NCBI GenBank assembly: GCA_021464415.1
Contig: CM038467.1
Location: forward strand, 27,149,248 to 27,213,247
Length of the DNA stretch: 64,000 nt
Direction: 5' to 3'
From: Lonicera japonica
Lineage: Eukaryota > Streptophyta > Magnoliopsida > Dipsacales > Caprifoliaceae
Both the position numbers and the translations under genes were made by a program. Position 1 is the stretch's first letter; each line of letters opens with the position of its first letter. Shown piece by piece: positions 1 to 44,018 of the stretch. A model generated the notes under the pieces. It was not told where the DNA came from. It worked only from the letters and a program-made list of their open reading frames with translations, and ran no database searches.

Positions 1-1354
1 CTAATTTCTGGGGGAAAACGGGAAAGTGATGAAAATCTTTGTGTTCCGAGATCCGATGTTTTTATTTAAAAAGTGTAAATACAAGTGACAAAACCTTTTA
101 TTTTGAAAGAGTATCCCGTATTATTTCCTCAGATAATGACGGTTTTCTCGTGTTGTGTTTACTTTTGTAAAAGTTCGGATCTATGTCGGGACTAATTTAA
201 TATGGAACTAGAACTCTTTGGGGAGAGTTATCAATCACGTCGCAGTCTATAGAGAAGACAGGATATGTTGATTCTAATTCCTAGATAAGTCGTATCAGTC
301 TGGGTTTTAAAAACAGAATTTTATTCGGACGATAACATACTTACTCTTCTGGTTTTGCAAATGGTTTTATCAGGGTCTTTTGTTTTGAAAACGGTAGACT
401 ATTTATAACTTGGCAATAAGTTTATTCAAATAAAACGTGGACAAGACGACAGAAATAAAACAAGTACACAGATAGACCTATTTTTCGAGCGCGTTAGGAA
501 TCTAGCCCAACCATGTTGCCACTTCGCTTACCAGGACGGGACAGCGCCCCGTTAGAAAAAAAACGAATTCTAAAAGTTTACAATAAAACTAACATGCGAA
601 TATCTTATTTAATTACGAGAAGAAACTTTATTTACCTTCCTGACGAAAATAATAATAAGAAAGAGAATATAATACGGCAGAGAGATCTCCGGCGATAATA
701 ATCTTCTCCTTCTTCAGATATTTCCGAGAATTCGCTTCCAGAGACGGGACACGTCGAGTGTCGGGAATAGATTCGATAATTCTTCAGAGATAAGATGATA
801 ATATAAAATGCTTGATAAAATCAGAATAAAACTCAGAATTTCTAGATTCCAGTCCCCTCCCTAACCCTTGGGGGTGTTGGCCTATTTATACTGCTCGGGG
901 AAGATTGTCGCGCGACATTTCCCCAAAAAAGGCAAGTGTCGCGCGACATATCTGTTTGTCGCGCGACAATCGGCTGAAGTGATGGGTCCTGACACTGTGA
1001 TGTGTCAGAAAGTGGTTGGTCGGGTGCAGAGAGGGATTGTCGCGCGACATAGTGGGATTGTCGCGCGACAAGCGGCTGAAGTGATGGGTCCTGACACTGT
1101 GATGTGTCAGAAAGTGGTTGGTCGGGTGCAGAGAGAGATTGTCGCGCGACATAGTGGGATTGTCGCGCGACATTCCAATGATTGTCGCGCGACAATGTGA
1201 TATGTCGTGCGACAATCCTTCATAAAAAAGGTTTGTCGCGCAACAAACCCCCCCGGGGTAGTTTCGGATGCTCGGGTGGGTCCCGGGCTCCAAAAACAGT
1301 AGTCTCGTAGGTCGTTTAGGGTTCTTGCGGGGGTCACGGATCGGGGTGTCTACA
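1..1354 (-). repeat. 3' LTR of the retrotransposon (partial, outer part missing)
   Basis: Positions 1-1354 match 17923-19276 at a constant offset of 17922 bases. The inner boundary is the dinucleotide CA of ...gtctaca at 1354. Comparison with the complete right LTR shows that 407 bp are missing beyond the window start. It carries the same palindrome cluster (906-1245), 102-bp internal duplication (969-1070 and 1071-1172) and TATA box (883-890, minus) as the right LTR. Confidence 0.93.
883..1245 (-). promoter_or_regulatory. LTR promoter: palindrome cluster plus TATA box (left copy)
   Basis: On the minus strand a TATAAATA box lies at 890-883. Upstream of it are eight perfect copies of TGTCGCGCGACA, starting at 906, 937, 957, 1038, 1059, 1140, 1161 and 1183, plus one-base variants at 1203 (tgtcgtgcgaca) and 1234 (tgtcgcgcaaca). 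The nearest palindrome ends 15 bp from the TATA box. Two 102-bp direct repeats (969-1070, 1071-1172) carry two sites each, plus a 7-bp inverted repeat (ctgacac/gtgtcag, 989-1008). Promoter function is inferred from position; the motif copies are seen directly. Confidence 0.75.
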
Positions 1355-1375
1355 GACCCTCTCGACTCAAGCTCC
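1355..1375 (-). other. Polypurine-tract-like stretch next to the 3' LTR
   Basis: Read on the minus strand, the bases just before the 3' LTR are gagtcgagagggtc, mostly purine. This is where plus-strand priming would occur. The tract is short and interrupted, so the call is weak. Confidence 0.35.
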
Positions 1376-1464
1376 TTGCTTGCAAGGAATTGAGGCGACT
1401 GGAAGAGACCATGATCCATGGCTCCCGCATGAACTCTATCGGAGTGTTTATGCAAAAAGTGCTT

Positions 1465-2240
1465 GTGAGTGCCTCCGGAGAGGGCTTCGTGTTTGGTTTT
1501 GCCTCCGGAGAGGGCTTTTGTTACCTCGTTGCCTCTTTCGAGGGCTTTGACTTGCTCCACTTGCCTCAGATGGGAGGACTACCATTGATCTTTTTTGCGC
1601 CTCAGGTGGGAGGACTACCATTGCGCCTCAGATGGGAGGACTACCATTGATCTTTTTTGCGCCTCAGGTGGGAGGACTACCATTGCGCCTCAGATGGGAG
1701 GACTACCGTTGTGCCTCTCTGGGAGGGCTTCGCCTCAGGTGGGAGGACTACCGTTTGTGCCTCTCTGGGAGGGCTTCGCCTCAGGTGGGAGGACTACCGT
1801 TGTGCCGCTCTGGGAGGGCTTCGCCTCAGGTGGGAGGACTACCGTTGTGCCTCTCTGGGAGGGCTTCGCCTCAGGTGGGAGGACTACCGTTGTGCCTCTC
1901 TGGGAGGGCTTCGCCTCAGGTGGGAGGACTACCGTTGTGCCTCTCTGGGAGGGCTTCGCCTCAGGTGGGAGGACTACCGTTTGTGCCTCTCTGGGAGGGC
2001 TTCGCCTCAGGCGGGAGGACTACCGTTGTGCCTCTCTGGGAGGGCTTCTAGATCTGAAAGAAGAAGGAAAAAATGCCTCTGGGAGGACTTTCATGAGTAA
2101 CTTTTGCCTCTGGAGAGGGCTTGTGTTTGTGAATTTGCCTCCGGAGAGGGCTTGTGTTGGTGAATGCCTCCGGAGAGGGCTTGTGTTTGTGAATTGCCTC
2201 CGGAGAGGGTTTGTGTTGGTGAATTGCCTCTCTTAGACTG
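1465..2240. repeat. Tandem repeats in the retrotransposon 3' region (about 45-bp and 30-bp units)
   Basis: A 45-46-bp unit (gcctcaggtgggaggactac followed by a gcctctctgggagggcttc half) is repeated about seven times between 1725 and 2048, with related shorter versions from 1563. It is flanked by copies of a 30-bp unit starting gcctccggagagggcttgtg at 1467-1560 and 2105-2235. The array is open in several frames, which creates spurious ORFs; no known domain is seen. Tandem arrays between pol and the 3' LTR are a known habit of Tat/Ogre elements. Confidence 0.85.
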
Positions 2241-3030
2241 CTAGAGTGAGAGAGAGTAGATTTTGCGAAGGTAAAAAGAACTTCTCAGGGTCTATTCGGG
2301 ATGTCCGTTTCCCTGTATCTTTCTGAACTTTACTCTCATGTTTTCCTCGAGTGAAGATGTTTCACTCCGAAGGCAGTTTTCGGATTTCTTTGCTCTCCGC
2401 AGAGTGATGGTCCGAGGTTTTCCAAATCATCTTTTCTGTATCGTGCTGAAAAGAAAATTTGTTTGAAAGTTCAATCTCTGATCTTTATTCTTTTCTTAGT
2501 TTTCTCTTTTGGTGGGCCCACATCGTTTTCTGTTTTTTCGATGCCCTTATTTCTCCCTCTTTTGGGAAAGACTTTTCCTGGCCCTCTCTGTTTTTGACCA
2601 GGAGTCTTTTCATCCCTTTGTCGTGATCAGGAGCCTTACTCACCCTAAAACGAAGCCCTGAGCCGTTTTTTGGCCTAGCTATCACTTTCAGTGTGGCTCT
2701 CCCTGTCACTCTACATGTCTGTTTCTCTCGCTCGCTTTGGGCGCTCATGCGGGTTTCTCCTCTTTTCTACTCTTTTAATTTTTTCTATTCCCGTCTTATC
2801 TCGCTATTTTGCTTTTTATTATTTGATGGTCTCGGTCCTTCTGTGAGATCAGAGACTACTTTTAATCGCGGCATTCTGTTTTCGCATTTTTTCGGAGAGA
2901 TGATTTGGAAGTTTTCTCTTTGAACTTTTTATCATGGGTGTGCGGTTTTTAGCAATTTTCCGAAAACTGCTTCTCCGAAGTGCCTCTGCAGAAGATAAAA
3001 TGAGACAAAGGTCAAAAAAATCAGGGAGGA
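2241..3030. other. Retrotransposon interior without recognisable gene
   Basis: Pyrimidine-rich on the plus strand, with no convincing ORF or repeat. It lies between the tandem repeats and the promoter module of the first antisense gene and may hold further control sequence. Confidence 0.5.
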
Positions 3031-3038
3031 GGGGGGAT

Positions 3039-3122
3039 TGTCGCGCGACACTTCGGTGTCTGGCTCTTTGTCGCGCGACAATGTGGCCATTTGTCGCGCG
3101 ACAAACTGACCCACTATATAAA
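3039..3122 (+). promoter_or_regulatory. Promoter module of antisense gene 1: three palindromes and a TATA box
   Basis: Three perfect copies of TGTCGCGCGACA at 3039-3050, 3069-3080 and 3092-3103 are followed 11 bp later by TATATAAA at 3115-3122. A pyrimidine-rich leader (ctctcc/ctttct runs, about 3151-3210) and the ATG at 3270 follow. The motif and layout match those of the LTR promoter and of antisense gene 2. The promoter role is inferred. Confidence 0.72.
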
Positions 3123-3269
3123 CCCCTTGCTGAGCTCATTCCACCTCATTCTCTCCTTTCTCTTTCTCTCTCTAGCTCTCTTTTTCTCTCTTTTCTTCTC
3201 TCCCAAGCGCGGAAGTTCTGCCGTGTTTTTGACTTTTCCGACCTTTTCACATATATTCTACCTATATCG

Positions 3270-6200
3270 ATGGACCCTGCTCATCTCGACCGATTGGAGG
3301 GTGACCAGGAGGAGGTCACCTTTACTGACGCTCAGGGCGTTCTTCGCTGCAGCCCTCATCACGACGACTGGGCGGACTTGGACTGGTATGATGAGGATAG
3401 GATAGACCGCGGTCGGGCGGTGGTCTATCGGGATGCTATCCGAGCTGCTCCGGTCCCGGACGTCCCGTGGCTTTTGATGGAGCCCGTTTCTCACGAGATT
3501 CGTCGTCGATCTCTGGTATGTCTTCTTTCGTGCATTTATCTGTTCTGCTTCTTGTCGTTTCCTGTATTCGTTTTAGATAATGTTAGTATGCATGTCTGAC
3601 TAGGAATAACGCCCGATTTTTAGCGAACACATACTTTTACCTGTGATACCTCTTAGTTTAGAAAATTACATAATGTACCCCCATAACTCTATAACTCTCA
3701 TAATTACACCAAAGTACCCTCAGGTTTTGGAAATTACATAATTTACCCTTATAACCCCTATAACTCTCATAATTACACCAAAGTACCCTCAGGTTTTGGA
3801 AATTACATATTTTACCCTTATAACCCCATAACTCTCATAATTACACCAAAGTACCCTCAGGTTTTGGAAATTACATAATTTACCCTTATAACCCCTATAA
3901 CTCTCATAATTACACCAAAGTACCCTCAGGTTTTGGAAATTACATAATTTACCCTTATAACCCCTATAACTCTCATAATTACACCAAAGTACCCTCAGGT
4001 TTTGGAAATTACATAATTTACCCTTATAACCCCATAACTCTCATAATTGCACCAAAGTACCCTCAGGTTTTGGAAATTACATAATTTACCCTTATAACCC
4101 CTATAACTCTCATAATTACACCAAAGTACCCTCAGGTTTTGAAAATTACATAATTTACCCTTATAACCCCTATAACTCTCATAATTACACCAAAGTACCC
4201 TCAGGTTTTGGAAATTACATAATTTACCCTTATAACCCTATAACTCTCATAATTACACCAAAGTACCCTCAGGTTTTGAAAATTACATAATTTACCCTTA
4301 TAACCCCTATAACTCTCATAATTACACCAAAGTACCCTCAGGTTTTGGAAATTACATAATTTACCCTTATAACCCCATAACTCTCATAATTACACCAAAG
4401 TACCCTCAGGTTTTGGAAATTACATAATTTATCCTTATAACCCCATAACTCTCATAATTACACCAAAGTACCCTCAGGTTTTGGAAATTACATAATTTAC
4501 CCTTATAACCCCATAACTCTCATAATTACACCAAAGTACCCTCAGGTTTTGGAAATTACATAATTTACCCTTATAACCCTATAACTCTCATAATTACACC
4601 AAAGTACCCTCAGGTTTTGAAAATTACATAATTTACCCTTATAACCCTATAACTCTCATAATTACACCAAAGTACCCTCAGGTTTTAGAAATTACATAAT
4701 TTACCCTTATAACCCTATAACTCTCATAATTACACCAAAGTACCCTCAGGTTTTGAAAATTACATAATTTACCCTTATAACCCCTATAACTCTCATAATT
4801 ACACCAAAGTACCCTCAGGTTTTGGAAATTACATAATTTACCCTTATAAGCCCTTAACTCTCATAATTACACCAAAGTACCCTCAGGTTTTGGAAATTAC
4901 ATAATTTACCCTTATAACCCCATAACTCTCATAATTACACCAAAGTACCCTCAGGTTTTGGAAATTACATAATTTACCCTTATAACCCCATAACTCTCAT
5001 AATTACACCAAAGTACCCTCAGGTTTTGGAAATTACATAATTTATCCTTATAACCCCATAACTCTCATAATTACACCAAAGTACCCTCAGGTTTTGGAAA
5101 TTACATAATTTATCCTTATAACCCCATAACTCTCATAATTACACCAAAGTACCCTCAGGTTTTGGAAATTACATAATTTACCCTTATAACCCCATAACCC
5201 TCATAATTACACCAAAGTACCCTCAGGTTTTGGAAATTACATAATTTACCCTTATAACCCCATAACCCTCATAATTACACCAAAGTACCCTCAGGTTTTG
5301 GAAATTACATAATTTACCCTTATAACCCCATACTCGTTCTTTTGTCTGCAGTGGGTTGGCTGAGGTTGGGGTTCCCCCAACACTATATCCTCGGAGTGGC
5401 GACGGGCACCGGCCCCTGTCCAGGAGTTGATCTTCGCGACTCCTTTCGGCTCCCTCTTCGACGCCCTCCCAGAGCGAGTATCTAGGGCGACAGTTTTAGT
5501 ATCGGCTCTGGCTTGCCACTGGTGGGACACCACCCATACCTTTCACTGGAGCTGGGGGGAGATGACGATGACCCCCCTCGATTTGTTTGCTTTGACCGGG
5601 ATCCCTTCAGGGGGTGTCCCCATTCAGATCGACGTCCCCTTGCGTCTGACAGCCGAGGGCATCGTTAGTTCATTAGGATGGTTTCCGGAGCGACGGAGTT
5701 CCGGTGACACGATTCCTCGGGGCGTCTTGGTTACGCGGTTAGCCACAGAGAGGGCTCGACTAGCTGCTTCAGGGGTTCCTATGACCCGTCAGGAGGCGCG
5801 CCAGTATGCCCGCGTCTTTCTTCTATTAACACTCCATGATTTATTCGAGGCTCGTGGTGGGGACACGGCTCATCTTTGGTGGTTGCCCTATCTTCGGGAC
5901 TTCAGCCTCCTGTTTGACTATGACTGGGGAGGCTTCATTCTTGCAGTCCTTTATGATGCCATGGACCAGGTCTCTCGCCATTTAGCCCTGAATCTCAAGG
6001 GCTTTTCTCTGCTGTGGGAGGTACATACTCTTGGTCTTTTCGCTTTTTAGTCCTTCACGTATTACCTGTTTGATTATTGCTGATGTTCTCTATTTTTCCT
6101 TTTCAGAGCTGGTTTGTAGCTTACACCCGCCTGGGTCGCGCCCAGGTGGATCTCCTCGTCGAGAACGAGGACCAGTTCCCTTTTCTCCGCCGATTCACTG

Positions 6201-7930
6201 CGGGGAACTACAGGGCTCCCTATGTATACCGGACTCGGGAGACCGGAGCTGCTGCTGTTCATGATCTGCGGGAGGAGCAGGTAAAATATTTTTAGTTTTC
6301 TTGTTCTTCAATAGTTAGATAAGATATATAATTTACTGAGAATAAAAAACTTGTTCTCTTTTCAGGTTGAGTGGGCCCCTTGGGGTGATCTGGGTCCTCA
6401 TCATGGGTATGGTCGTGCTCTGACCGCCTCGAGGACCAGGCGACTTATCCGGGATGAGTACGGCCTTCTCTTCTACTTGGGTGAGAGGGTCATTCGTCAG
6501 CACACGCCATCCTAGTGGCCTCGTGTTCCATTGTTCCTTCCTGTTCTGATGAGGCGGACGGGCGAGATCGACCCGGTGACGGTGCAGGCTTTGGTTGACG
6601 GACTCGGCTTCCAGACGTTCGTCGAGGAGGGAGACTATGCTATTTTTGCTGCCCGTTACCTGATGAGGGAGCCGAAGGGGACTCGGGGACGGGTCTTCTA
6701 TGAGAGGTATCGGGCATTGGGGGGTGATCCTCATTACATACGGGGACAGACCCATTTAGCTAGGGTGGTTCCGGGTCATTTGCCACCTGTCCCCGATCAG
6801 AGGGACAACATTCCGGATTCCGATGATGAGGATCCTGAGGGAGAGAGGGATGTTCCTGCTGCGGCTGAGGGCGGTGGTCGGCCAGAGGGCGAGGGAGGTG
6901 ATGCGACAGCCGTTCCGGAGCCGTCACCTCAGGCGACACCTGTGAGGGAGCAGCGTACTGAGGGTTTCGAGTTTCCGACCGGCCCTTCTGTGTCTCCGGG
7001 TGTCCTTTTTGCTGCTGCTGAGGCTGCTGTGGGGAGAGCGGGATTGTCTGAGAGGTCCTGGGAGCCCGCGGACCTCGGGGCAGATTACGAGCAGTTCGGG
7101 CGGACTCCCCCAGTTGCGGTGGCTTCTCCTTCTAGTGGGGTACCTCATCTGAGGGCGTCGGCCATAGTGGATCCTCCGGGGGTCCGTACTTACGCCACGT
7201 TGACTCCTCTTCCGGCGACTGTCATGGGTCCTCCTACCCGATCTCCAGGTTTCGGGGGTTCTTCATCCCGGCCTCCCTTGTTCCCAATCCGTGAGGAGGG
7301 CGGGTCTACTTCCGCTGGTGTTCCGGCGGGGTCGTCTATTCCGTGGGTAGATCTACCCCCACTCCCCAGGGATATTCCTTATGTTGGCGCTGGATTACGT
7401 CGATATTCCGTCCCGGAGTTTCCTCTTCCTGAGGATACTTTTGACTTTTTGGGTGGTCGCCCTGATGAGGAGGTACTTTTACTTTTTCCTTTTCTCGATA
7501 CCCTTATGTCTATCTCCATCTATTTTGACTGTGCTGATTCTCTTTCATGTCCTTTTTACAGAGAGTGAGCGTACGGGTGGCAGATCTTCGGGCTTGGTAC
7601 GCCCAGTACCTTTACAGCTGGAACCTGCTCCAGTATGTCGGTCGAGACCCTCCAGCCTATATGCGTGACTATCAGAGGGCTATCGACATCTCTTTACGGC
7701 CGGACGACCCCCTGACTTCCTCCCATGCCCGGACGGATTCTCGGAGGAGCAGTAGTCGGACTTCCAGGCGTTCCCGATCGTCGGTGATCCGTCCTACGGC
7801 ACCGGTCCAGTCCACGGGGCCTTCTCAGGCGGCGGTTCCTTCTGTTCCCAGCATCCCAGTTGTTGATCTTACCCCCGAGGAGGGCTCGGGAGATAGTGGG
7901 AGCGTGTCAAAACGCGCCCGAGTAGATTAG
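3270..7930 (+). pseudogene. Antisense gene 1: five-exon plant mobile domain (PMD) protein, probably decayed
   Basis: Proposed exons are 3270-3515, 5352-6020, 6107-6280, 6366-7472 and 7562-7930. All introns are GT-AG and in phase 0, giving about 854 codons. Exon 2 carries PMD hallmarks: the motif WDTTHTFHWSWGEMTMTPLD, then YARVFLLLTLHDLF and LPYLRDFSLLFDYDWGG. PMD proteins include Arabidopsis MAIN/MAIL1 and many transposon-borne relatives; they are nuclear and linked to silencing. The C-terminal exon has a Ser/Arg-rich stretch, a SUMO-interaction-like VVDLT before acidic residues, and a terminal KRAR. Two in-frame stops break it: TAG at 6513-6515 and, with the obvious acceptor, TGA at 5361-5363. 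The second could instead mean a misjudged splice site. It lies antisense between integrase and the 3' LTR. The PMD call is confident; the exact splicing is not. Confidence 0.72.
3650..5335. repeat. Minisatellite of 67-69 bp, about 24 copies, in intron 1 of antisense gene 1
   Basis: The unit contains accaaagtaccctcaggt, ttggaaattacataattta and cccttataacccc. It repeats almost perfectly from about 3650 to 5335 with single-base variants and small length changes. The array fills nearly all of the proposed intron 3516-5351. It is AT-rich, in sharp contrast to the GC-rich exons on each side. It is not CRISPR: there are no unique spacers and the host is a plant. Confidence 0.95.
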
Positions 7931-8244
7931 TTTTCCCTTTTCTGCATTTTAGTGTTAGTTTGGACAGATACATGTTTAGACAGATATTTAAAAACTGTTC
8001 TTTTATTGGTTTTATAAAATATCTTTATCTGTGTTTGATTATACTTTTATTCTCTGTCTGTGCAAGATATATACATATATATATAAGAGTCGGTAATTTA
8101 AAAGTCATACCTTGTAGTGTAGTGATACTTATGTTTCCTGCAAAAAAGAACAAAGTGAGAACAGAAAAGCATCCAGAAGTGATTCTTTTGGCAAAGATGA
8201 CCATTATGTATAAGGAAAAAAGTAGGGTGCCCCCCAGATGGGTT

Positions 8245-8354
8245 TGTCGCGCGACAATCCCTCCTGGTCATGGGTTTGTCGCGCGACACTTCCCCCTGAA
8301 AATGGGTTTGTCGCGCGACAAACAGGTACAGGACCCTCTTTTTTGCTATAAATA
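8245..8354 (+). promoter_or_regulatory. Promoter module of antisense gene 2: three palindromes and a TATA box
   Basis: Perfect TGTCGCGCGACA copies at 8245-8256, 8277-8288 and 8309-8320 precede TATAAATA at 8347-8354, with 26 bp between the last palindrome and the TATA box. The ATG at 8393 is 39 bp downstream of the TATA box. The layout repeats that of antisense gene 1 and the LTR. Promoter function is inferred. Confidence 0.72.
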
Positions 8355-8392
8355 CACCCATCTTCCTTCCTTCATCCCCACACCTCTCCAAA

Positions 8393-9649
8393 ATGTCTTC
8401 CTACCGTACCAACTCTGATTTTTCTTATGTTAAAGCTCGAGATGCTCTGATATCTTCTGAAAATGGTTTGAACTTTGGTGCATTCAGTCCTTTGGCGGGC
8501 TGGTGCCATCGTCCTGTAGATTTCTCCTTTCTGTTAGGTGCCTTGTATTTCTGGAGTCCTGCGGACCATCTCTTCCGTTTTGGACTAGATGAGCTCTGCC
8601 CGACCTATGAGGAGTTCTCCTGGCTGTTACGTTCTGACGTTCGTCTCCCGATGGCAGTTCCTATAGAAGGAATCGGTCCCCGCGACATGCTAATTGCTCT
8701 GTTAGCCATTCCCCAAGCGGCCTGCGATGGTTTCATTGTCGACGGGCTCCTTGACCTCCATAAAATGGTGAGGTTCTTTCATCGTTATGAAGATAGGGCC
8801 TCTTACGGCGTGGGGCGTACTGCAGCGGCCCTGATTTGCCTGGTTTCTGATATGCTGCTGGTGACGGGTTCTTCCCGTGTTGATCCGACTATCTTGAGTC
8901 TGATTTACCAGGCTAGAAATGGGGAGTCTATAGTGCCGATCATTCTTGCAGAGACCCTGAATGGTCTTGATGATGCTCAACGGGGGGCCTCGCCCTTCTT
9001 TCGGGGGAGCCCGCGTCTGCTATACATGTGGCTGCTAGAGCGCTTTCGATCGGTGGGTTTCAGCGGAGTTCGGCTCGACAATCCGACTCATTTCTTCTAT
9101 CGGCCTCTCTTTGGTGCTTTGACCATGTCTTCCTCTGATTGGACGGTGTGGTTTTCGGAGAACTTTCGGGCTATCCGGTGGAACATTCCTTGGTGGAAGC
9201 TGAGGAAGATGGTACTTAATACTGGGGGTCAGAACTACGTTCGGCTCCGCGGGCTCTGGTTTACTTCCTTTTATCTCCCTGGGCGTCTTCTTCGACAGTT
9301 TAACATTCCTCAGGAGGTTCCCCTTGGTCTGAACAACTTCTCTTCTGAGTCTAAATTTGTGACCCCACATGTTTCTTTATCGGTAGAGAGGATGTGGCGT
9401 GCTCGACTGACTTGTCAGTTCAATTATGCCCGTTTTGGTATTACCCGGCCCCTCCGGGCTGATATCATCCGCTCTTGCTGGCAATCTCTGGAAGGAGAAC
9501 TGATCGACGACCCCTTTCAAATGGAGTGGTTCCGGTTCATGGATACGGAGGCTACTGATGATAATATTGTCTTTGCATATCAGATCTTGGACGAAGCTCG
9601 GATCGATTTGGCTATTGAGGACCCAGTGTGGCCAACCCCTAGGGATTAG
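8393..9649 (+). CDS. Antisense gene 2: intact 418-residue PMD-like protein of the retrotransposon
   Basis: This is a single open exon with no internal stop. Near residues 50-80 it reads FWSPADHLFRFGLDELCPTY, then EEFSWLL. This parallels the PMD signature (W.P.THTF...GEM..TLED..LL), so it is probably a divergent member of the same fold, like the retroelement-borne DUF proteins of plants. The rest is tryptophan- and arginine-rich; no signal peptide or membrane segment is evident. It begins 39 bp after a TATA box and converges on the pol gene, which ends at 9873. A palindromic poly(A)-like aataaatttatt lies at 9735-9746. Its integrity, against a broken antisense gene 1 and integrase, may reflect recent insertion or selection. 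Molecular function is unknown; a nuclear, chromatin or anti-silencing role is speculation from family and context. Confidence 0.75.
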   Translation: MSSYRTNSDFSYVKARDALISSENGLNFGAFSPLAGWCHRPVDFSFLLGALYFWSPADHLFRFGLDELCPTYEEFSWLLRSDVRLPMAVPIEGIGPRDMLIALLAIPQAACDGFIVDGLLDLHKMVRFFHRYEDRASYGVGRTAAALICLVSDMLLVTGSSRVDPTILSLIYQARNGESIVPIILAETLNGLDDAQRGASPFFRGSPRLLYMWLLERFRSVGFSGVRLDNPTHFFYRPLFGALTMSSSDWTVWFSENFRAIRWNIPWWKLRKMVLNTGGQNYVRLRGLWFTSFYLPGRLLRQFNIPQEVPLGLNNFSSESKFVTPHVSLSVERMWRARLTCQFNYARFGITRPLRADIIRSCWQSLEGELIDDPFQMEWFRFMDTEATDDNIVFAYQILDEARIDLAIEDPVWPTPRD

Positions 9650-9872
9650 TTTCTTTCGTATTTGTTATGTCTCCTTTGTAACCTTCGGTGTTCTGAACCA
9701 CCTTTTAATAATATATGAGGGACTGCTTGTGGGAAATAAATTTATTTACAAAGTTTAAACCGGGCCTGAAGTCACTTCTCAGGTTGCCTACGTTCCCCTT
9801 TTTTATTTTTATAAAGAACAAAAAGTTTTGAGTTGGGGCTCAGGTTTACGTAGTTCTTGTTATATGCCACAC
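9650..9872. terminator. Convergent 3' region with a bidirectional poly(A)-like signal
   Basis: The two reading frames converge here. aataaatttatt at 9735-9746 reads AATAAA on both strands. It could end the antisense gene 2 transcript, but on the minus strand it would lie inside the genomic RNA. Confidence 0.4.
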
Positions 9873-12800
9873 CTACTGATAATACTTCTTCAGTCGATCC
9901 ATGTTGACTGGTGAATGTAGTAACTGCCCATCCAAATCAGTGAGTATGGCGGCACCTCCTGTATCGATTTCTTTGACGATGTACGGCCCTGTCCACTTCT
10001 GCCCGAACTTACCCCTCGGATCTCTGGCTGGTTCTCGAATTTCTTTCAATACGATATCGTTCTCATTGATACCCCGAGTCCTCACCTTCCGGTTAAATGC
10101 TCGAGCGATTCTCTTCTGATACCCCTGATGGTGGTACGTCGCTTTCAACCTCTTTTCATCTAGTAGGGCTAGCTCGTTATAACGTGCCTGGACCCACTCC
10201 AGTTCATTGACTTGATTTTCTAGTATTACCCTGAGGGAGGGGACTTCTAACTCAACAGGGAGGACTGCTTCCATCCCGTATGTAAGAGAGAACGGGGTTG
10301 CCCCGGTGGAGACCCTCTCGGTGGTGCGATATCCCCACAATGCATAAGGTAATTTTTCTGGCCAGTCTCGACAGGTGTCGGTCATCTTACTTAGGATATT
10401 CTTCAGATTTTTATTGGCGGCTTCAACTGCCCCGTTGGTTTGTGGCCTGTATGGCGAAGACCTGTGTCTGGTAATACCGTATTCTTCCATGATGGTATTA
10501 GCTTCTCCTTCGAAGTGGGTGCCGTTATCTGAGATGAACTCGTGTGGGACCCCATATCAGCAAACGATATTCCTTTTGATGAATCGGGCTACTCTTTTGG
10601 CGTCCAGGGTCTGGTAAGACTCGGCTTCTACCCATTTGGTGAAGTAGTCGATGGCCACTAGTATGAATTCATGGCCGTTGCTGGCTTTGGGCGAGATCTT
10701 CCCAATGACGTCGATTCCCCAGGTTGCGAAAGGCCAGGGAGCAGTCATGGTGTACAACTCTTTTGGAGGAAGCTTCTGGGATTTAGCATAAATTTGGCAC
10801 TTGTGACAACGGCGTACGTGATTAGCGCAGTCAGTTTGCAGAGTAGACCAAAAATAACCTTGTCTGATGATTTTGCGGGCAAGTGTATGTCCGCTCATAT
10901 GAGGTCCGCAATCGCCCCCATGTATCTGATCCATTACCCTGACTGATTCTCTTTCGGTGAGGCATTGAAGATGAGTCCCGTCGTAGTTCCTTTTATACAA
11001 TCTTCCGGCACAAAGTATGAACCCTGATGCTAATCTTCTGAGCGTGACCCGTGTTTTCTTGTCTGTTTTCTCAGGATACTGATGGTTCTTCAGCAGGTTC
11101 CAGATATCGTAAAACCAAGCGGTTGAATCCCCTTCCCCTTCATTCTCTACCTCCAAAGCCGTGCAGTGTGCTGGTTCTGCCTTCTTCTGCACCGTAAGAG
11201 TTATTTCTTCCATTCCTTCCGGGATATCGATCATAGATGCCAGGGTTGCCAGTGCGTCAGCAAAACTGTTCTGAGACCTGGGGAGATAGTAAAACTCCGT
11301 ATGTTTGAACTTTCCTGCGACATCCTCCAGTCGGGCGAGGTAAGGGACTAATTTCTCATCTCTGATCTTCCATTCTTTCAGAACCTGGTGAACCACTAAT
11401 GCTGAATCTCCGTATACCTGTATCCTCCTTATACCCCTTTGAAGAGCGATCTCTAACCCGAGTATGCAGGCTTCATATTCAGCCATGTTGTTGGTGCAGA
11501 AGAAGTCCAGTCGATATGATACCGGGGAGTGAGTTTGGTCTGGAGAGACTAACAGGATACCTATCCCGTTTCCATTCCGATTGGCGGCCCCGTCAAAGTA
11601 CAACTTCCAGTCTTCATCAACCTCGACATTCATGATGGTTTCATCTGGGAACTCGGCTTCTTCCAGCACGTCCCCCAATACTGGATTATGGGCCAGGTAA
11701 TCAGCTATGATCTTGCCTTTGACCGCCTTCTGGGTCATGTAGGTGATGTCGAATTCGAAGAGTAAAAACAGCCATTTTGCCATTCGGTTCGAGAGAGCCG
11801 GTTTCTCGAAGAGGTATTTCAACGGATCAATCCGTGATGCCAAGATGACTGAGAAGACTAGCATGTAGTGTCGTAGTTTCTGCGTTACCCAGACGAGAGC
11901 GGTACATGATTTCTCCAATGGTGTGTAGTTTATCTCAAATGGGGACAGTTTCTTGCTGAGGAAGTAGATGGCCTGCTCTTTCCGGGTATCAATCAGGTGC
12001 TGGGCTAGCATTGCTCCCGCGGCTGAATCAGTGACGGTTAGGTATAAAATTAAGGGTAGTCCGATTTGTGGTGGGGCTAAAACTGGGGGGTTGGAGAGAT
12101 ATTCTTTGATTCTATCAAAAGCTTCTTGGCACTGACCGTCCCACTCTCCTGGTGAAGATTTCCTCAGGAGCTTGAAGATGGGCTCGCAAGTCTGAGTGAG
12201 CTGAGAGATGAACCTACTGATGTACTGCAGATTACCCAAAAATCCTCGGACTTCTTTCTCGGTACGAGGTTTAGGCATTTCTTGGATAGCTTGAACCTTG
12301 GCAGGGTCTACCTCGATTCCTCTCTTACTAACAACATAACCTAGGAGTTTTCCCTTGGTCACCCCGAACACACATTTCTGCGGATTGAGTCTCATCTGGT
12401 ACTGGCGGAGCCGGTCGAAGAAGGTTCGCAGGGCTGGTATGTGACCTTCCCTCTCCTTTGATTTGATTATCATGTCGTCCACGTACACCTCTACTTCTTT
12501 GTGGATCATATCGTGGAAGATAGCGGTGGCTGCTCTTTGATAGGTTGCCCCAGCGTTCTTCAGCCCAAATGGCATAACGGTGTAGCAGTATGTTCCCCAT
12601 GGTGTGATGAATGCAGTTTTCTCCTGGTGATCCGGGTGCATTTTGATCTGGTTATACCCGGCAAAACCATCCACAAATGACTTTAGGGCGTGATTTGCAG
12701 TGTTATCTATTATCAAATCAATGTTGGGCAATGGAAAATCGTCTTTCGGACAAGCTTTGTTAAGATCCCGGTAATCCACACACATGCGGACCTTCCCATT

Positions 12801-15800
12801 TGCCTTTGGAACGGGCACAATGTTGGCTAACCATGAAGGGTAATCGATCACTCGTAAAAACCCTACACTCAGTTGTTTCATTACTTCTTCCTTTACTTTC
12901 AGGGACCATTCTGGCGTAAGTTTCCTTAACTTTTGCTTGACAGGTCTGAACTCCGGCTTGGTATGTATCTCGTGCATGACTATCTGACTGTTCAATCCTG
13001 GCATATCAGCATAAGACCAGGCGAAGACATCCACGTACTCTTTCAGAATTTGTGTGAATTCCTCTTTTTCTGCTTCACTCAGACTTGTCCCGATGCGGAC
13101 CTCCTTTCTTTCCTCTTCTGTCCCGAGGTTAATTTCAAGAGTGTCTCCTTCCTCGCTCTGTATACGCTGTTCCTCCCGTTCAGGGTGTTCGTTTAGTCTT
13201 TCTAACTCCTTATAAGCTATTACAGAATTACAAATAACAGGATAACGTAAAACAGAGTTTTCTTCATTGATAAGAGTGTTTACAGGTATAAGTTTAAAAA
13301 GTAAATCTAGGAGTGGCTCTTTCCTAGCCTTTCTTTCACTCTCACCTCTCACCCTTACGATTTCACTCTTTTCCCCTTTTCTTTGGTAGTCTGGATCAGC
13401 GTATATCAGGTGTACGGGGTCATCCCTTGGCTCGTCATCCCCTAGTGCCATGATGTCGAAGAGATCTCCGATCATTTCTTCTTCCTTATCTGTCTTGTCT
13501 TCATTTTCTTCTTTCAACCCGATTGTTAGTTTGGTGGAGAAACTGTGTTCGATGCTTTCTTTGATATATAGGTCCTCTTCATAGAAGATTTCCCATCCTG
13601 GTAGGCTCTCTCCGTCGCTGTTTCTCCAAGGTTCCTGAAAACCGCAAAAGGGGAAGTCCTCTCCTTCTTTGACAAAAAACCCGTTCAAGGAGCTGAAACT
13701 CGGATACTGATGCCCCCGACCCCCTTTTTGCTGATTGTCTTCCTCAGTGTGTTGGTACCCCAAACCTTCCCTCTCGTACCTTGCTACTGGTTCCAATGCT
13801 TGAAGTAGTCCTGGTTGTCCCATTCCCAGACCGGCTCCAGGCAAGTATTTCATCATTCTCAACATATTTGTAATCTTGGTGCTGAGACCGGGGATATTGT
13901 CAGGGGGAAGATACCTGATTGTCTGGGTGCTAAGAGTTTTCACTTGAGGCTCGTAAGAAAAGCCTCCCAACTGTATGCTCTGGCTCCCGATTCCCAAAAC
14001 TGGTAACTCCATATCCGCCAAGGTCCTTTCAGGATCTCCTTGGATGGTAATTATGTTCCCTTTAAACGGTATCTTGATCTTTTGGTGCAAGGAGGAGGGG
14101 AGTGCTCCTATGTCGTGTAGCCACGCTCTTCCCAGCAGGAGGTTAAAACTGGAGGGAATATCTATGATTTGGAAGTCGGCTGGAAAGTTTCCGGGACCAA
14201 CCATGAGATCGAGCTTCAGAGAACCTAGAACGGCCCTTCTAGTATTATCGTAGGCCCTGACAGTCACGGCGGATGGAGAAAGCTCTGAATCCAAGATACC
14301 CAGGCATCTAGCGGTCTTCAAGGGGCAGACGTTTATGGTTGACCCATTGTCGATAAGGACTTGTGGCAAAATCTTTCCTCGGGTTCGGACAGTGATATGG
14401 AGAGCCAGGCTGTGTTTCCTCCCCAATGGAGACAGATCCTCATCTGAAAATGACAGACTTCTTTGGATTGTAAGCGACCCGATCATGTTTGGCAGTTGTT
14501 CGGGTGTGGAGTCTGGTGATATCACGGCCTCGTCCAGAAGTTTGATGAAAGCGGTCCTGTGGGGTTTGGAGGCAACCAAGAGGCCCCAAATGGTGATGTG
14601 TGCCTGGGTCTTCTTCAACTGCTCAAGCACTCTATCTTCTCCCATTTCCTTAGGTGGTAGTGTTTTCTCAGCATCCGTCGGTGGTGGTTGATATACCCTT
14701 CCTGAACGGGTGATCTGTTGAATCCAAAGGGATGCCGGGTCTGATTCCTCTGAAGCTTCTGACGATTCCGGCTCTGTCGACCAACTAAAAGTCCCGGGGG
14801 AGGTTTCTGTCATACAGATTGTCTCCCTATTTTGGGATTTCCATGACTGTTTCTTCTTATTCTGGGTCCATCCTATCCCAGATTTTCCGGGATTGGTTTT
14901 GATTGCAAGCGGCTGTGAGATCCCCTGATTCGTCTTTCCTAAACCCTGCCCGGGTAGGAAGTTCATTTTGGCCATCCATTGGTCAATTATGGGATTGAGG
15001 CCCGGGGTAACTTGGGTTTTTGCTGGCAGTACAACGGGTGCCCTGTAGACTGGGTCATCTCGTATGAGCCTTACGGGGTCAAAGCCTTCTTCATCAGTGG
15101 TTAAGGCATTGATTCCTACAGGTGGAGCATGGTTAGGGAGTGGATTGTTGACAACATTGGGTCCGCCGGGTGCGGGGATGGTTCCGGCTTCAATGAGGTC
15201 TTGAATACGATGACGAAGGGCCAAACAACGCTCCGTGTCATGCCCTGCAGCTTGATGATACGCACAATTCTCATTCATTTTCCAGGTACTTGGAATAGGA
15301 TTTGGTGGAGGGCGCGGGTTGAGTGGAGTGATTAGTCCGGCCTTTCGAAGCAGCTCCAGACTTTTTACCAGTGTAGTGGGGAGGGTGCAGAAGTTTCTCC
15401 TTTTCTTGTCCTCGGTGTTTGAAGGGCCTCCTTGTGCGGGCCAATTCATCAGAGGTGGTTGTTGTGGTTGTTGAAAAGGGTTCTGTTGATAGGGGTATGA
15501 GCTTATTTGGTTCACGGCGGTAGTGGCCGTCTTTTTCCCGATGTAAGCGGCTTTCTTGGTATCGATTTCAGCTTTCTTGGCCAATTCTTCCTCTACTTGT
15601 GACCCCATACTCAACAGGGCCCTGAAGTGTGGGAATACATGCTTTCCTATGCAACTCAGTACGGCTGGAGTGAAGTTCTTCTGAATGATTTCCATCTGTT
15701 CTTCTTCATCGGGTCGTTTGGACATTTGGGAGGCCATCTCCCTCCAGCGAGTGACAAAGTCGCTGAAGCTTTCTTTCTCGCCCTGTTTGGCCATTTCCAG

Positions 15801-16763
15801 GTGTTTACGGGTAATTTCCAAATCTTCGTTGGACCCGTATTTGGTCATAAATTCCTTGACGATATCTCCCCAAGTCTGCGTGTGATGCCTTTCTAGACCA
15901 AAAAACCATCTCAGGGCGGCCCCCGTGAGAGTCATGTGAAAGGCCTGTGCTAATTCCGGCTCTCCACAATCGGACACTTGCATGGATCTGATGTAGGACT
16001 GTAGATGGGTTTTAGGGGGCGTGGTTCCAGTGAATTTGGTGATGGAAGGGAGTTTGAATCCCTGGGGTAATCTTGCTTCTGGGTATAGGGAGAAGGCATT
16101 CATGTCTGTGATCTCGTCTGCTCCTTTTATCAGGGACACCCCCTTCTGTAGGACTCTCATCTGCTCTTTCAGCTTCTTCATTTCCTCACTCTCTCTTGAC
16201 ACCTCGTCGGGCTGTTCTCGCGCTATTACCGATTCTGCATATACTGCCCGAAGTCGGTTGATGTCTGGGTATTCATTAGGGAGGGCTGCTGGGGCCGGTG
16301 GTGGAATGGGTCTTGCAGGAACTTGTGGCCATGGTTGATAGTGGGGGTCAAAGCCGGGTTGTACTTGGGGTTGCGGCCAGACTATGGGTGGCTCTTGCTG
16401 TTGGTAAGTGGGGCCTGAATCTGGGGCCCATTGGTTCTGATTGTTGGGGTCGGTTTGAACAGGACCAGCTACGATAGGGCCCGTTTGGGGTGGATTGGTT
16501 CCTTGAACTGGGGGGAGTACCTGTGAAGACTGTCCTTGGTTCGGATCACGATTCGGTGGTAGTCGATCAAACCCCGGTGGTGCAGTTCGTTCGGCTGACA
16601 ATTCTTCTATTCGGATTCGGGTACCCTGTTGCTCGTTCGTGAGATTTGCCAGATCCCTGCTGACGGTCATGAGTAAACGGTGCATTTCGGCTAGGGTTGG
16701 CTGAGCTGATGATGCCTCGGCTCGGCTCTGATCTGTCTCTCGATTCTCGCGTTCATCGGCCAT
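9873..16763 (-). pseudogene. gag-pol: Retrotransposon gag-pol polyprotein, interrupted by one nonsense codon
   Basis: Read right to left, residues 1-2068 (16763-10560) are followed by TGA at 10559-10557; the same frame then continues to 9873. Domains seen: coiled-coil/proline-rich N-terminus; gag about 250-400; a C-x2-H-x4-H-x4-C motif at 500-513; G-patch-like motifs near 601-632 and 973-1003; aspartic protease LIDNGS at 803-808; RT about 1300-1490 with YVDD 1427-1430; RNase H about 1570-1690; a second RNase H 1718-1845 (YFDGAAN, AEYEA, GDSA, FADALA); integrase zinc finger H1948/H1955/C1986/C1989 and first catalytic Asp in WGIDVIG. The other catalytic Asp (SDNGTHFE) and Glu (TNGAVEAANK) lie beyond the stop, then a GPY-type end. 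The stop sits where relatives usually have Arg; CGA to TGA by CpG deamination is likely. The two RNase H domains mark the Tat lineage. Confidence 0.93.
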
Positions 16764-17495
16764 TTCAGGTGTGCTTGGTCTTACTAGTCTTCCGGTGTGA
16801 TCACGGCCGGCCCAACCTTCCAGTCTGTTGTTGCTTCACGACTGTAGACGAAAATCACGTGGCGAAGATGAAGGAAGACTGTGATGCGACTCGATTTTTG
16901 CCAAAAGAACCACTATAAATTGCCGAGAAGAGCCTCGAATTTTAAAAAGGGTGTCGAAAAGTAAGCCGTAAAGTGGTACATCCTCTACGGCTGTTTGACA
17001 AGTGTTTTAACTCGACTCGATCTTATATGCAGCGCAGGTGTACGAACGGTTAAGGCTTCAGGCTCCCTCCTTTTTGGCAAGGCCTTGCGATATACCCCAG
17101 GGGCGGGTACGTGCAAGAATCTTTTGATATACTTCCCGGGTACGTGAGTGTTCTCGTCACTCGATATACCTCGGGGGCGTACTTGGCCAAGGAGAGTGGA
17201 AGTAAATGCTTTCGGTTTATGTTGGCCCAAGCAAGCCAACTCCCTACTCACTTATAATACTTCCGAGGGTTTGGGGTAAATTCACACTCGTAGAACCAAT
17301 GCATGATTTGTGATAGTGCGTGTGAAAAAGGTTGGGTTTACAAATATCATTATCTTGATTACGTATTTTTGAAAAATTCCCTTTTTCTAAAAAAAATGTT
17401 TCTTCTCAATCAATTAACATAAGTAGGGAAAGCAGGAAAAGCAAGTGTTCAAATAGATAAACGAAAGTCCACATATAAGAGTCTAGTTCTCTAGT
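16764..17495 (-). other. Retrotransposon 5' leader
   Basis: This is the untranslated region between the primer binding site and the polyprotein ATG at 16763. No other gene is seen. The start Met is supported by the hydrophilic ADERENRETDQ beginning and the lack of a longer conserved extension. Confidence 0.6.
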
Positions 17496-17515
17496 GATCC
17501 CCAGCAGAGTCGCCA
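17496..17515 (-). other. Primer binding site
   Basis: On the minus strand, tggcgactctgctggggatc starts one base after the 5' LTR end. The TGGCG start and the GGGGATC end fit a tRNA 3' end. It matches a plant tRNA-Asp 3' end only with about four mismatches, so the exact tRNA is not claimed. Confidence 0.7.
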
Positions 17516-17516
17516 C

Positions 17517-19276
17517 TGTGAGAATCCGCAAATGCGACCCCCGGGTCTCGTCCCCGCTCGTTGGGCGTCTGAAGCGTCGGAACGGATTTCGTTGCTCCAT
17601 TTGCTTGGAGTTGTTTGATGATTCTTATCATGTGTCCCTACGTCTATTCTAGATGCAAAGGGATTCGTTCAGAGTCGCCAGTACGTTTTACGAGAAAACG
17701 GACAAAAAGGGTTGTGTAAGGGAAAAGGCTACAGATAAGCCTTTCTTTACACATTTGTCTGCGAAACCAGGATTCTATAGGGTTCGGGAACTATATTACG
17801 GTTTGGGAAGGTGTTAAGCACCCATTCCGCCCTTTCGGTCTCTAGTGGTCTTTATATGTTTATTCTATATTGAAAAACTTGGATGCTTTTACTGACAGTC
17901 TACTACTCTTCAAATGAAAACCCTAATTTCTGGGGGAAAACGGGAAAGTGATGAAAATCTTTGTGTTCCGAGATCCGATGTTTTTATTTAAAAAGTGTAA
18001 ATACAAGTGACAAAACCTTTTATTTTGAAAGAGTATCCCGTATTATTTCCTCAGATAATGACGGTTTTCTCGTGTTGTGTTTACTTTTGTAAAAGTTCGG
18101 ATCTATGTCGGGACTAATTTAATATGGAACTAGAACTCTTTGGGGAGAGTTATCAATCACGTCGCAGTCTATAGAGAAGACAGGATATGTTGATTCTAAT
18201 TCCTAGATAAGTCGTATCAGTCTGGGTTTTGAAAACAGAATTTTATTCGGACGATAACATACTTACTCTTCTGGTTTTGCAAATGGTTTTATCAGGGTCT
18301 TTTGTTTTGAAAACGGTAGACTATTTATAACTTGGCAATAAGTTTATTCAAATAAAACGTGGACAAGACGACAGAAATAAAACAAGTACACAGATAGACC
18401 TATTTTTCGAGCGCGTTAAGAATCTAGCCCAACCATGTTGCCACTTCGCTTACCAGGACGGGACAGCGCCCCGTTAGAAAAAAAACGAATTCTAAAAGTT
18501 TACAATAAAACTAACATGCGAATATCTTATTTAATTACGAGAAGAAACTTTATTTACCTTCCTGACGAAAATAATAATAAGAAAGAGAATATAATACGGC
18601 AGAGAGATCTCCGGCGATAATAATCTTCTCCTTCTTCAGATATTTCCGAGAATTCGCTTCCAGAGACGGGACACGTCGAGTGTCAGGAATAGATTCGATA
18701 ATTCTTCAGAGATAAGATGATAATATAAAATGCTTGATAAAATCAGAATAAAACTCAGAATTTCTAGATTCCAGTCCCCTCCCTAACCCTTGGGGGTGTT
18801 GGCCTATTTATACTGCTCGGGGAAGATTGTCGCGCGACATTTCCCCAAAAAAGGCAAGTGTCGCGCGACATATCTGTTTGTCGCGCGACAATCGGCTGAA
18901 GTGATGGGTCCTGACACTGTGATGTGTCAGAAAGTGGTTGGTCGGGTGCAGAGAGGGATTGTCGCGCGACATAGTGGGATTGTCGCGCGACAAGCGGCTG
19001 AAGTGATGGGTCCTGACACTGTGATGTGTCAGAAAGTGGTTGGTCGGGTGCAGAGAGAGATTGTCGCGAGACATAGTGGGATTGTCGCGCGACATTCCAA
19101 TGATTGTCGCGCGACAATGTGATATGTCGTGCGACAATCCTTCATAAAAAAGGTTTGTCGCGCAACAAACCCCCCCGGGGTAGTTTCGGATGCTCGGGTG
19201 GGTCCCGGGCTCCAAAAATAATAGTCTCGTAGGTCGTTTAGGGTTCTTGCGGGGGTCACGGATCGGGGTGTCTACA
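17517..19276 (-). repeat. 5' LTR of the retrotransposon (complete, 1760 bp)
   Basis: On the plus strand it begins TGTGAGAATCC at 17517 and ends TGTCTACA at 19276 (TG...CA). It shares 17923-19276 with the left LTR. By-eye differences include a/g near 309 and 18231, g/a at the gcgtta site, g/a in gagtgtc, one base inside a palindrome (19062-19073, tgtcgcgagaca) and two bases near 1297-1300. The TATA box on the minus strand is at 18812-18805. The short ORFs within it are read-through of palindromes and are not believed. Confidence 0.93.
18805..19167 (-). promoter_or_regulatory. LTR promoter: palindrome cluster plus TATA box (right copy, drives the element)
   Basis: Palindromes start at 18828, 18859, 18879, 18960, 18981, 19083 and 19105 (perfect), with variants at 19062, 19125 and 19156. 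The TATA box (TATAAATA, minus strand) is at 18812-18805. Being in the 5' LTR, this is the copy expected to start the genomic RNA. Confidence 0.75.
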
Positions 19277-19588
19277 ACACTATTTTTGGTCCAGTCCGAT
19301 CGGTTCATTCAGTTTGGTTTCTGAACACCCCTATCTATATTACAATCTGGAGCTTAACTTTGTACTTAAAGTGACCACTAATTTTTGAATCACGTGGTTA
19401 GAAATAGTTGCAGCAAATCTAACGGTGGATGGATGGTTTATCTTGGCTCAATAGTTTATTTACTTTTTCTTTTTTTCTTTTTACTCTGCCACAACCCTAT
19501 TATCTGTCTCTCCACACCATTCTTTTTCTCTATAACTGTAAAATTCTCTTGTGTGTTTTTAAAATTATTTTGTCTATCTCAGTGTAGT
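19277..19588. other. Flanking DNA, no gene seen
   Basis: Unique-looking sequence with a pyrimidine-rich stretch around 19460-19530. The short ORF here has no recognisable domain. Confidence 0.4.
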
Positions 19589-43632: not shown

Positions 43633-44018
43633 TCTATATTATAAAACACAAAATTTAAGTCAATGTTCATTTTTAAATGTCTCTTAATTTAAAGGCTCAC
43701 ATCGCATATATATAGCTGGGATAATATTAATATTAGCCCTTACATGTTTCTTCTCATATTGAAATATCATATCAATACAATAAATACTCACACGCAAAAT
43801 ATACAGACACGCTATTCTTCTTATTCACTTTCTCTCTCAGTAATTCTTTAAAATGTCATAATTATAAATTTAAAAATTTAATTATAATAAAATTTAAAGT
43901 TTTAAAATCTATTAATCAATGTCTATAAAACGAGATACATAATAAACATAAAATTGTAAAAAAAATAAAAAATCGATACTAATATTTGGATATTTTATAG
44001 TGTGATTTTTCATAGCAA
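43633..44018 (+). mobile_element. Possible Helitron 5' end upstream of the MYB-like gene
   Basis: a|TCTATATTATAAAACACAAA at 43633 resembles Helitron 5' ends. AT-rich DNA then leads to the ATG at 44019. No matching 3' hairpin and CTRR were found downstream on this strand, so it could be a fragment or chance. Confidence 0.3.

Follow-up and report, generated by a model that had tools for sequence, protein, structure and literature searches.

Introduction

Short sites that are repeated upstream of the TATA box in the long terminal repeat (LTR) are known from the plant retrotransposons Tnt1, Tto1 and ONSEN, in which they are read by host stress factors. To our knowledge, these U3 sites are not repeated at internal antisense promoters. 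In this study, we analyzed a 64,000-nucleotide stretch of Lonicera japonica DNA (contig C5:27149248-27213247 of an assembly with 886,079,548 bases; hereafter the window), in which a minus-strand Ty3/gypsy LTR retrotransposon occupies positions 1-19276. This element likewise carries repeated short sites in U3; unlike Tnt1, Tto1 and ONSEN, as far as we know those elements, it repeats the same site at the promoters of two internal antisense genes.

VANC proteins of the VANDAL (Mutator-like) transposons of Arabidopsis, as described in the sections of the source on which we draw, recognize short words arrayed in non-coding parts of the element's own DNA; the arrays change through tandem repetition, the word differs from one related family to another, and the element itself encodes the candidate readers (PMC5735166). 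All of these features recur here, and the VANC parallel that had been drawn in an initial annotation of this stretch proved apt, since non-coding motif arrays that differ between related families were found. The VANC reader has been proven by chromatin immunoprecipitation and electrophoretic mobility shift assay (PMC5735166), whereas the candidates here are PMD-type antisense proteins known from sequence. Moreover, the present element is not a VANDAL transposon but an LTR retrotransposon, its words are palindromes that contain CpG and stand upstream of TATA boxes, and its antisense proteins match PMD and DUF7745 only (no direct comparison with VANC proteins was made).

On PMD domains in such elements, Steinbauerova 2011 is cited by a survey of plant Gypsy elements. 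In that survey PMD is the commonest atypical domain, and the available part of the text does not report operators or co-regulation (PMC9289625). The aORF-3R arrangement of Grande gene23, RIRE2 and Retand resembles the present element in having tandem repeats near the antisense gene, for which a regulatory role was proposed; it differs in that the proteins here are of PMD type rather than TRP28, and a word common to the LTR and the antisense promoters is not among the features given in the available sections of those papers (PMC7264820, PMC11963269). In Retand, an antisense TRP28 (PF04195) protein was reported in 97% of clusters (Vicient 2025, in part). No such protein was found in the present element when six pieces of the antisense genes were scanned against Pfam at E≤0.1 (gene-1 exon 3 was left out); only PMD and DUF7745 were matched. 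Finally, the Arabidopsis PMD proteins MAIN and MAIL1 control gene expression and silencing of transposable elements, and MAIN/MAIL1/PP7L have been linked to a promoter motif, DOWN (CATGCAGTTT, in the MORC1 promoter; PMC7156037, PMC9899485, as far as the portions consulted describe it), which is not enriched in the window.

Results

Palindrome arrays upstream of three TATA boxes

Within the element, the 12-bp palindrome TGTCGCGCGACA was found to cluster only upstream of three TATA boxes, plus in the matching array of the 5' LTR. The features concerned are as follows (window coordinates):

884..890, minus strand: TATA box of the LTR promoter (regular-expression match), nearest palindrome 15 bp off
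906..1245, unstranded: U3 array of the 3' LTR, 8 perfect and 2 one-mismatch copies of TGTCGCGCGACA
3039..3103, unstranded: gene-1 promoter array, 3 perfect palindromes (3039, 3069, 3092)
3115..3121, plus strand: TATA box of antisense gene 1, 11 bp from the nearest site
3270..7930, plus strand: antisense gene 1, PMD protein, five-exon model (exons 3270-3515, 5352-6020, 6107-6280, 6366-7472, 7562-7930)
8245..8320, unstranded: gene-2 promoter array, 3 perfect palindromes (8245, 8277, 8309) in a 32-bp register
8347..8353, plus strand: TATA box of antisense gene 2, 26 bp from the nearest site
8393..9649, plus strand: antisense gene 2, 418-aa PMD/DUF7745-like protein, reading frame open in the window copy
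18828..19167, unstranded: 5' LTR array, 7 perfect and 3 one-mismatch palindromes

The initial annotation had reported ten LTR sites (eight perfect) upstream of the minus-strand TATA box, three sites at each antisense gene and a last site 11-26 bp from each TATA box. These coordinates were all confirmed, with every site at the antisense genes perfect and gaps of 15 bp (LTR), 11 bp (gene 1) and 26 bp (gene 2); its further claim that the window holds no other copy was wrong, given that the same array recurs in the 5' LTR at 18828-19167. In the 3' LTR, perfect sites lie at 906, 937, 957, 1038, 1059, 1140, 1161 and 1183 and one-mismatch sites at 1203 and 1234, with spacings of 31, 20, 81, 21, 81, 21, 22, 20 and 31 bp. 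Two LTR sites with fixed mismatches (TGTCGTGCGACA, TGTCGCGCAACA) look like CpG decay.

When up to two mismatches were allowed, 26 matches were found in the window compared with 0.35 expected, and none of 100 shuffles reached 26; with 21 copies, TGTCGCGCGACA is the sole G/C-containing 12-mer palindrome present more than once. The perfect word was absent from the 44,723 window bases outside the element and from 139,350 bases flanking 15 further LTRs; a first-order Markov model derived from those outside bases puts the chance expectation at an estimated, not counted, ~1.3 copies per 886 Mb. However, site numbers overstate the evidence. In the LTR, a tandem duplication of 102 bp (100/102 identical) raises the count, and at gene 2 the three sites constitute a 32-bp tandem repeat, so that the arrays amount to three independent clusters rather than 16 independent sites. 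When the 81-bp gaps are excluded, the short spacings in the window group at 20-23 and 30-32 bp (P 0.0004 over ten spacings, P 0.009 over the seven distinct values). This grouping is no more than suggestive of helical phasing, and the 19-bp register of the second family described below does not fit turns of 10.5 bp. In a literature search, TGTCGCGCGACA was found only in a paper on chicken PRMT4 and CCGTACGGTTGG in none. By eye, a second inverted repeat, CTGACAC-N6-GTGTCAG, was also seen in the 102-bp U3 block and has been copied along with it (window 957-1140).

The palindrome in other copies of the family

The family to which the element belongs (family A) is large: 4446 first-look candidates were obtained, and the 100 that were scored are all at least 97% identical. 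Copies for reading, here and below, were chosen from capped lists of scored matches and not at random. Among 20 ten-kb stretches beside LTR matches, 5 contained the antisense genes and 15 carried the LTR alone on the side read. The LTR array was present in all 20, with 6-8 perfect sites, and both antisense arrays were present in all five young copies with antisense genes, with at least 2 perfect sites each; at gene 1, all three sites were perfect in four of the five and two in L009. The gene-2 promoter was then read more widely. In 20 further copies, taken along the list of 100 scored matches and searched at up to 2 mismatches, one site (n=1), two (n=3), three (n=15) or four (n=1) were counted, with 32-bp steps between sites; the number of sites thus turns over in register, and the TATA-proximal site was perfect in 20/20. 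Ten more gene-2 promoters came from 102 scored matches to a distant protein, P0003; the array was found in 9/10 and its proximal site was perfect in 8/9. Altogether, at least one perfect site stands at the gene-2 promoter in 35/36 distinct copies, window included.

Four diverged copies (of 20), whose LTR pieces are 82-94% identical to those of the window, kept the three arrays in every case, with 3/3 perfect sites at gene 1, 2-3 at gene 2 and 4-7 in the LTR. The word is thus common to the three promoters in 10/10 family-A copies read that far. As to differences between these four copies and the window (57 motif bases falling in gaps were left out), motif and spacer bases differed at 12/433 versus 114/1179 in the LTR (P 1e-6), 0/144 versus 24/373 at gene 1 (P 6e-4) and 0/134 versus 14/586 at gene 2 (P 0.08, not significant), and in nine diverged gene-2 promoters at 3/216 versus 129/1294 (P 3e-6), all of these P values being too small because the copies are related. 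The nine comprise L048 and eight of the ten P0003-derived promoters; L079, which has no array, and L083, which is of the young type, were left out. In every diverged-copy comparison the motif was less changed than the spacers, despite the CpG-rich word.

In L. macranthoides, the N terminus of the protein P0001 is extended by a stretch whose reading frame runs through the promoter (LSRDT...VCRAT...FAINTP). Judged from the protein letters, this extension fits two word copies plus a TATA box at the same place in the assembly of that species. In addition, the U3 arrays of L050 and L052 show an extra site at 20-bp spacing and one 80-bp gap, where the window has two 81-bp gaps; this change is a rearrangement that kept the word.

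A second family with a different palindrome

P0002, a protein 44-45% identical to gene 2, led to a second large family in the same genome (family B, ~70% identical to P0002), with 4114 first-look candidates and 101 scored, in 20 of which the 600 bp upstream were read. Between families A and B, the aligned parts of gene-1 exons 1, 2 and 4 are 41-51% identical, and gene 2 is ~45% identical as measured indirectly through P0002. At up to 2 mismatches, TGTCGCGCGACA was found in none of the 20 family-B gene-2 promoters. Instead, a palindrome close to CCAACCGTACGGTTGG preceded the TATA box in 20/20, with 2-5 copies each. These amount to 66 sites at up to 4 mismatches of 16, with 35/46 spacings equal to 19 bp; the last site starts 30-31 bp before TATA in 19/20 and 46 bp before it in L068. 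No match to the B word was found in the first 350 bases of each stretch (7000 bases in all 20), and the window is without it at up to 3 mismatches.

In one family-B copy, L077, the sequence was read at all three promoters. At up to 3 mismatches, the B word was also found in the LTR U3 at 2219-2385 and at gene 1 at 4752-4805, and nowhere else in the 8251 bp besides its three promoters. The LTR-like stretch of L077 spans ~1287-2671, its ends having been read by eye and backed by a short match to the LTR end of the window, and has a minus-strand TATA box at 2125-2131; the gene-1 array is followed, 26 bp on, by a TATA box at 4832 and then by the gene-1 orthologue. Since family B carries another palindrome at the same promoters, the word appears to be private to a family and common to its promoters. 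Moreover, the same plan with different words in two related families is the pattern expected from co-evolution of reader and operator. The initial annotation had held that related antisense genes without the motif would count against it; family B, with TGTCGCGCGACA at 0/20 promoters, is literally such a case, and the other palindrome at the same place backs the general idea. At L077:48-1249, the 3' LTR adjoins an inverted gag-pol fragment ~76% identical to the gag-pol of the window, which is a nested or rearranged insertion.

The two antisense genes

Gene 1 matched PF10536 at 8.5e-18 (65.1 bits compared with a curated cutoff of 34.9) and is thus a PMD protein. Gene 2 matched the same profile weakly (8.6e-4, 19 bits, under 34.9) and was likewise below the curated cutoff for DUF7745; P0001, P0002 and P0003 are also under the PMD cutoff, and that for DUF7745 was passed by P0002. 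Gene 2 matches a Lonicera macranthoides protein at 94%. In the window copy, gene 1 has two in-frame stops, in exons 2 and 4. These were absent at those places in all five other copies examined, four of which are disrupted at other points of gene 1 or gene 2, and every gene-1 exon frame was open in 3 to 5 of the 5.

Selection was assessed by the ratio of nonsynonymous to synonymous change (dN/dS). When the window was compared with the four diverged copies, gene 1 gave 0.03-0.09 in exon 2 and 0.16-0.23 in exon 4. Among the ten pairs of five gene-2 copies (one of which, L056, has a stop), nine gave 0.09-0.17 and the tenth had 2 changes, both silent. Values for young copies rest on few changes and are uninformative (exon 4, window versus L009: 1.68). 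Both antisense proteins are maintained by purifying selection, which indicates that both do something for the element. No relatives were found in viral or prokaryote contigs, nor were paired words found in the viral contigs.

Discussion

The initial annotation had proposed that one DNA-binding factor co-controls the three promoters. This proposal is well supported by inference, given that the arrays are kept in 4/4 diverged copies and that family B has another word in the same places. We suggest that the palindrome arrays may be family-specific operators of the retrotransposon, and that one sequence-specific factor would read the word as a dimer at all three promoters, of which the LTR promoter would give genomic RNA and gag-pol and the other two would drive the antisense genes. 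Most likely the reader, or whichever component confers its specificity, would be one or both of the antisense PMD-type proteins, perhaps with a host partner; both antisense genes are present in every copy read at all three promoters, and the PMD family has established roles in gene activation and in the silencing of transposable elements. Such a factor would most likely activate or de-silence the promoters of its own family, its own genes included. For VANC-like self-recognition in this sense, with family-specific operators and a reader that is most likely one or more element-encoded PMD-type proteins, we see an even chance.

Several observations weigh against this proposal. Binding of a reader to the word is itself a prediction, and the same pattern would also arise if every family made its own choice of host factors. 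In family B, three promoters were read in the single copy L077, in which the nearest listed LTR site is 87 bp from TATA and hence not close to it. The array of the L079 gene-2 promoter has been lost by deletion. In young copies the motif was not significantly more constant than the spacers (8/2208 versus 32/5451, P 0.29; 23/24 copies counted, L003 left out), and a P of 1.5e-4 at non-CpG positions was discarded on the ground that misaligned LTR edges had been included. For gene 2, AlphaFold gave a poor model (mean predicted local distance difference test score 39) that was unfit for a fold search, the Protein Data Bank yielded no sequence relatives for gene 2 or gene-1 exon 2, and no DNA-binding fold was recognized. 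Contact of MAIN and MAIL1 with chromatin is called an open question in the consulted part of the literature (PMC9899485). Furthermore, the DOWN motif is unrelated to the word and not enriched in the window. It was rejected as a link to MAIN/MAIL1, as CATGCAGTTT has no exact match in the window and 6 one-mismatch matches compared with 4.7 expected, none of them in the promoters of the element and one at 19306, just outside the 5' LTR.

The main alternative, possible but less probable, is that each family adopted the sites of a different host transcription factor at its three promoters, and that the antisense proteins act elsewhere. Host-factor sites are used in U3 by Tnt1, Tto1 and ONSEN, and such arrays are common in plant LTRs. 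The B word has a GTAC core and CCAACC, which we take to resemble SBP and MYB sites. TGTCGC, the A half-site, belongs to the ARF type TGTCNN, and in roots the reporters with TGTCGC show expression domains of their own; however, according to the part of that work available to us, the main inverted-repeat geometry of ARFs is IR7/8 and not zero spacing (PMC10690724). Moreover, the entire 12-mer is kept rather than TGTC alone, a change of factor would need to happen at three promoters together, and recurrence might be expected of a widely used host site, whereas ~184 kb of other DNA contained no copy of the A word.

It is unlikely, in our estimate, that the same element-encoded reader is a repressor that binds by the TATA boxes and so limits copy number and antisense expression. 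The short distance from last site to TATA, 11-26 bp at the three family-A promoters and 14-15 bp in 19/20 family-B gene-2 promoters (a 16-bp site starting at -30/-31), is such that a dimer bound there could obstruct the initiation complex. However, up to 5 sites at the antisense promoters or 10 in the LTR are more enhancer-like, the family-B LTR array begins 87 bp from TATA, and family A, with 4446 first-look candidates and 100 scored copies all at least 97% identical, is large.

Least probable is that template switching or conversion carried parts of U3 into the internal promoters, and that concerted evolution maintains the likeness of the words within the family with no common reader: tandem turnover is visible (the 102-bp LTR block and the 32-bp gene-2 units), some spacers are alike (best shuffle P 0.003) and, between clusters, the flanks of the word resemble each other more than random DNA does, but the best of 72 spacer comparisons fails correction, the words are shared and more constant whereas the spacers are not shared, and every array lies upstream of a TATA box. 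Two arguments from these likenesses were dropped. Spacer likeness as proof of copying from the LTR was not significant across the 72 comparisons, and a directional origin could not be read from the flanks, which were nearly as alike in flipped as in the same orientation; such likeness in both orientations fits a site slightly wider than 12 bp, with T/A flanks, rather than a directional origin.

The function of such antisense genes in plant LTR retrotransposons is called unknown in the portions available of the aORF-3R literature (PMC7264820, PMC11963269), and in the available text on MAIN and MAIL1 their route to their targets is still open (PMC9899485). With a private word for each of the two families at equivalent promoters, every PMD protein can be tried directly on either word in a swap test. 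If self-recognition by element-encoded PMD proteins is correct, LTR retrotransposons would own a VANC-like system and PMD would be a DNA-targeting domain; even with host readers, a mobile element whose operators were replaced in concert at three promoters would provide a clear example of how regulatory networks are rewired. More tentatively, and at rather less than an even chance, each Tat family may carry a private operator code read by its own PMD proteins. In that case PMD would act as a sequence-specific DNA-recognition domain, or as one that confers specificity, and would have switched words between families; the antisense genes would be self-regulators by which an element distinguishes its own copies from those of other families, and MAIN and MAIL1 would be domesticated regulators of this type.

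Additional features of the element and its surroundings

The remaining features of the element are as follows:

1..1354, minus strand: 3' LTR, cut by the window start (true left end at coordinate -405), U5-R left and U3 right
3656..5332, unstranded: 68-bp minisatellite, 24.6 copies, filling most of gene-1 intron 1
9873..10490, minus strand: integrase remainder (rve_3 8.2e-5, under the curated cutoff), apart from gag-pol here
10557..16763, minus strand: gag-pol open reading frame with gag, G-patch, reverse transcriptase, two RNase H-type domains and integrase zinc domain
17517..19276, minus strand: 5' LTR, from LTR pairing

LTR positions 1-1354 and 17923-19276 pair at 99.56% identity; the full LTRs are 1759/1760 bp long, with 10 mismatches and 1 gap, and are flanked by the 5-bp target duplication ACACT. 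The single gag-pol frame contains both RT_RNaseH (2.5e-19) and RVT_3 (9.2e-18), two RNase H domains being named as a Tat feature in the available part of the Gypsy survey (PMC9289625), and the antisense reading frames, genes 1 and 2 at 3270-7930 and 8393-9649, lie between pol and the 3' LTR. Judged from these domains, the element is of the Tat type. At window 10490-10557, gag-pol is split ahead of the integrase end, and the window copy itself therefore looks defective in pol. G-patch matches were found within the gag-pol frame 10557-16763; in the same part of the survey, G-patch is among the commonest atypical domains of plant Gypsy elements (PMC9289625).

A 45-bp tandem array lies between the LTR and gene 1 (window 1686-2048), and copies differ by up to ~1 kb in the spacing between the gene-1 array and gene 2. 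At two places on contig C361 (15638-16455 and 65890-66723), oppositely oriented LTR pieces adjoin. Beside the element, TIR-like and NB-LRR/LRR-like resistance-gene frames (window 29468-55010) and a GARP/MYB-like reading frame (44016-44786) were named by eye.

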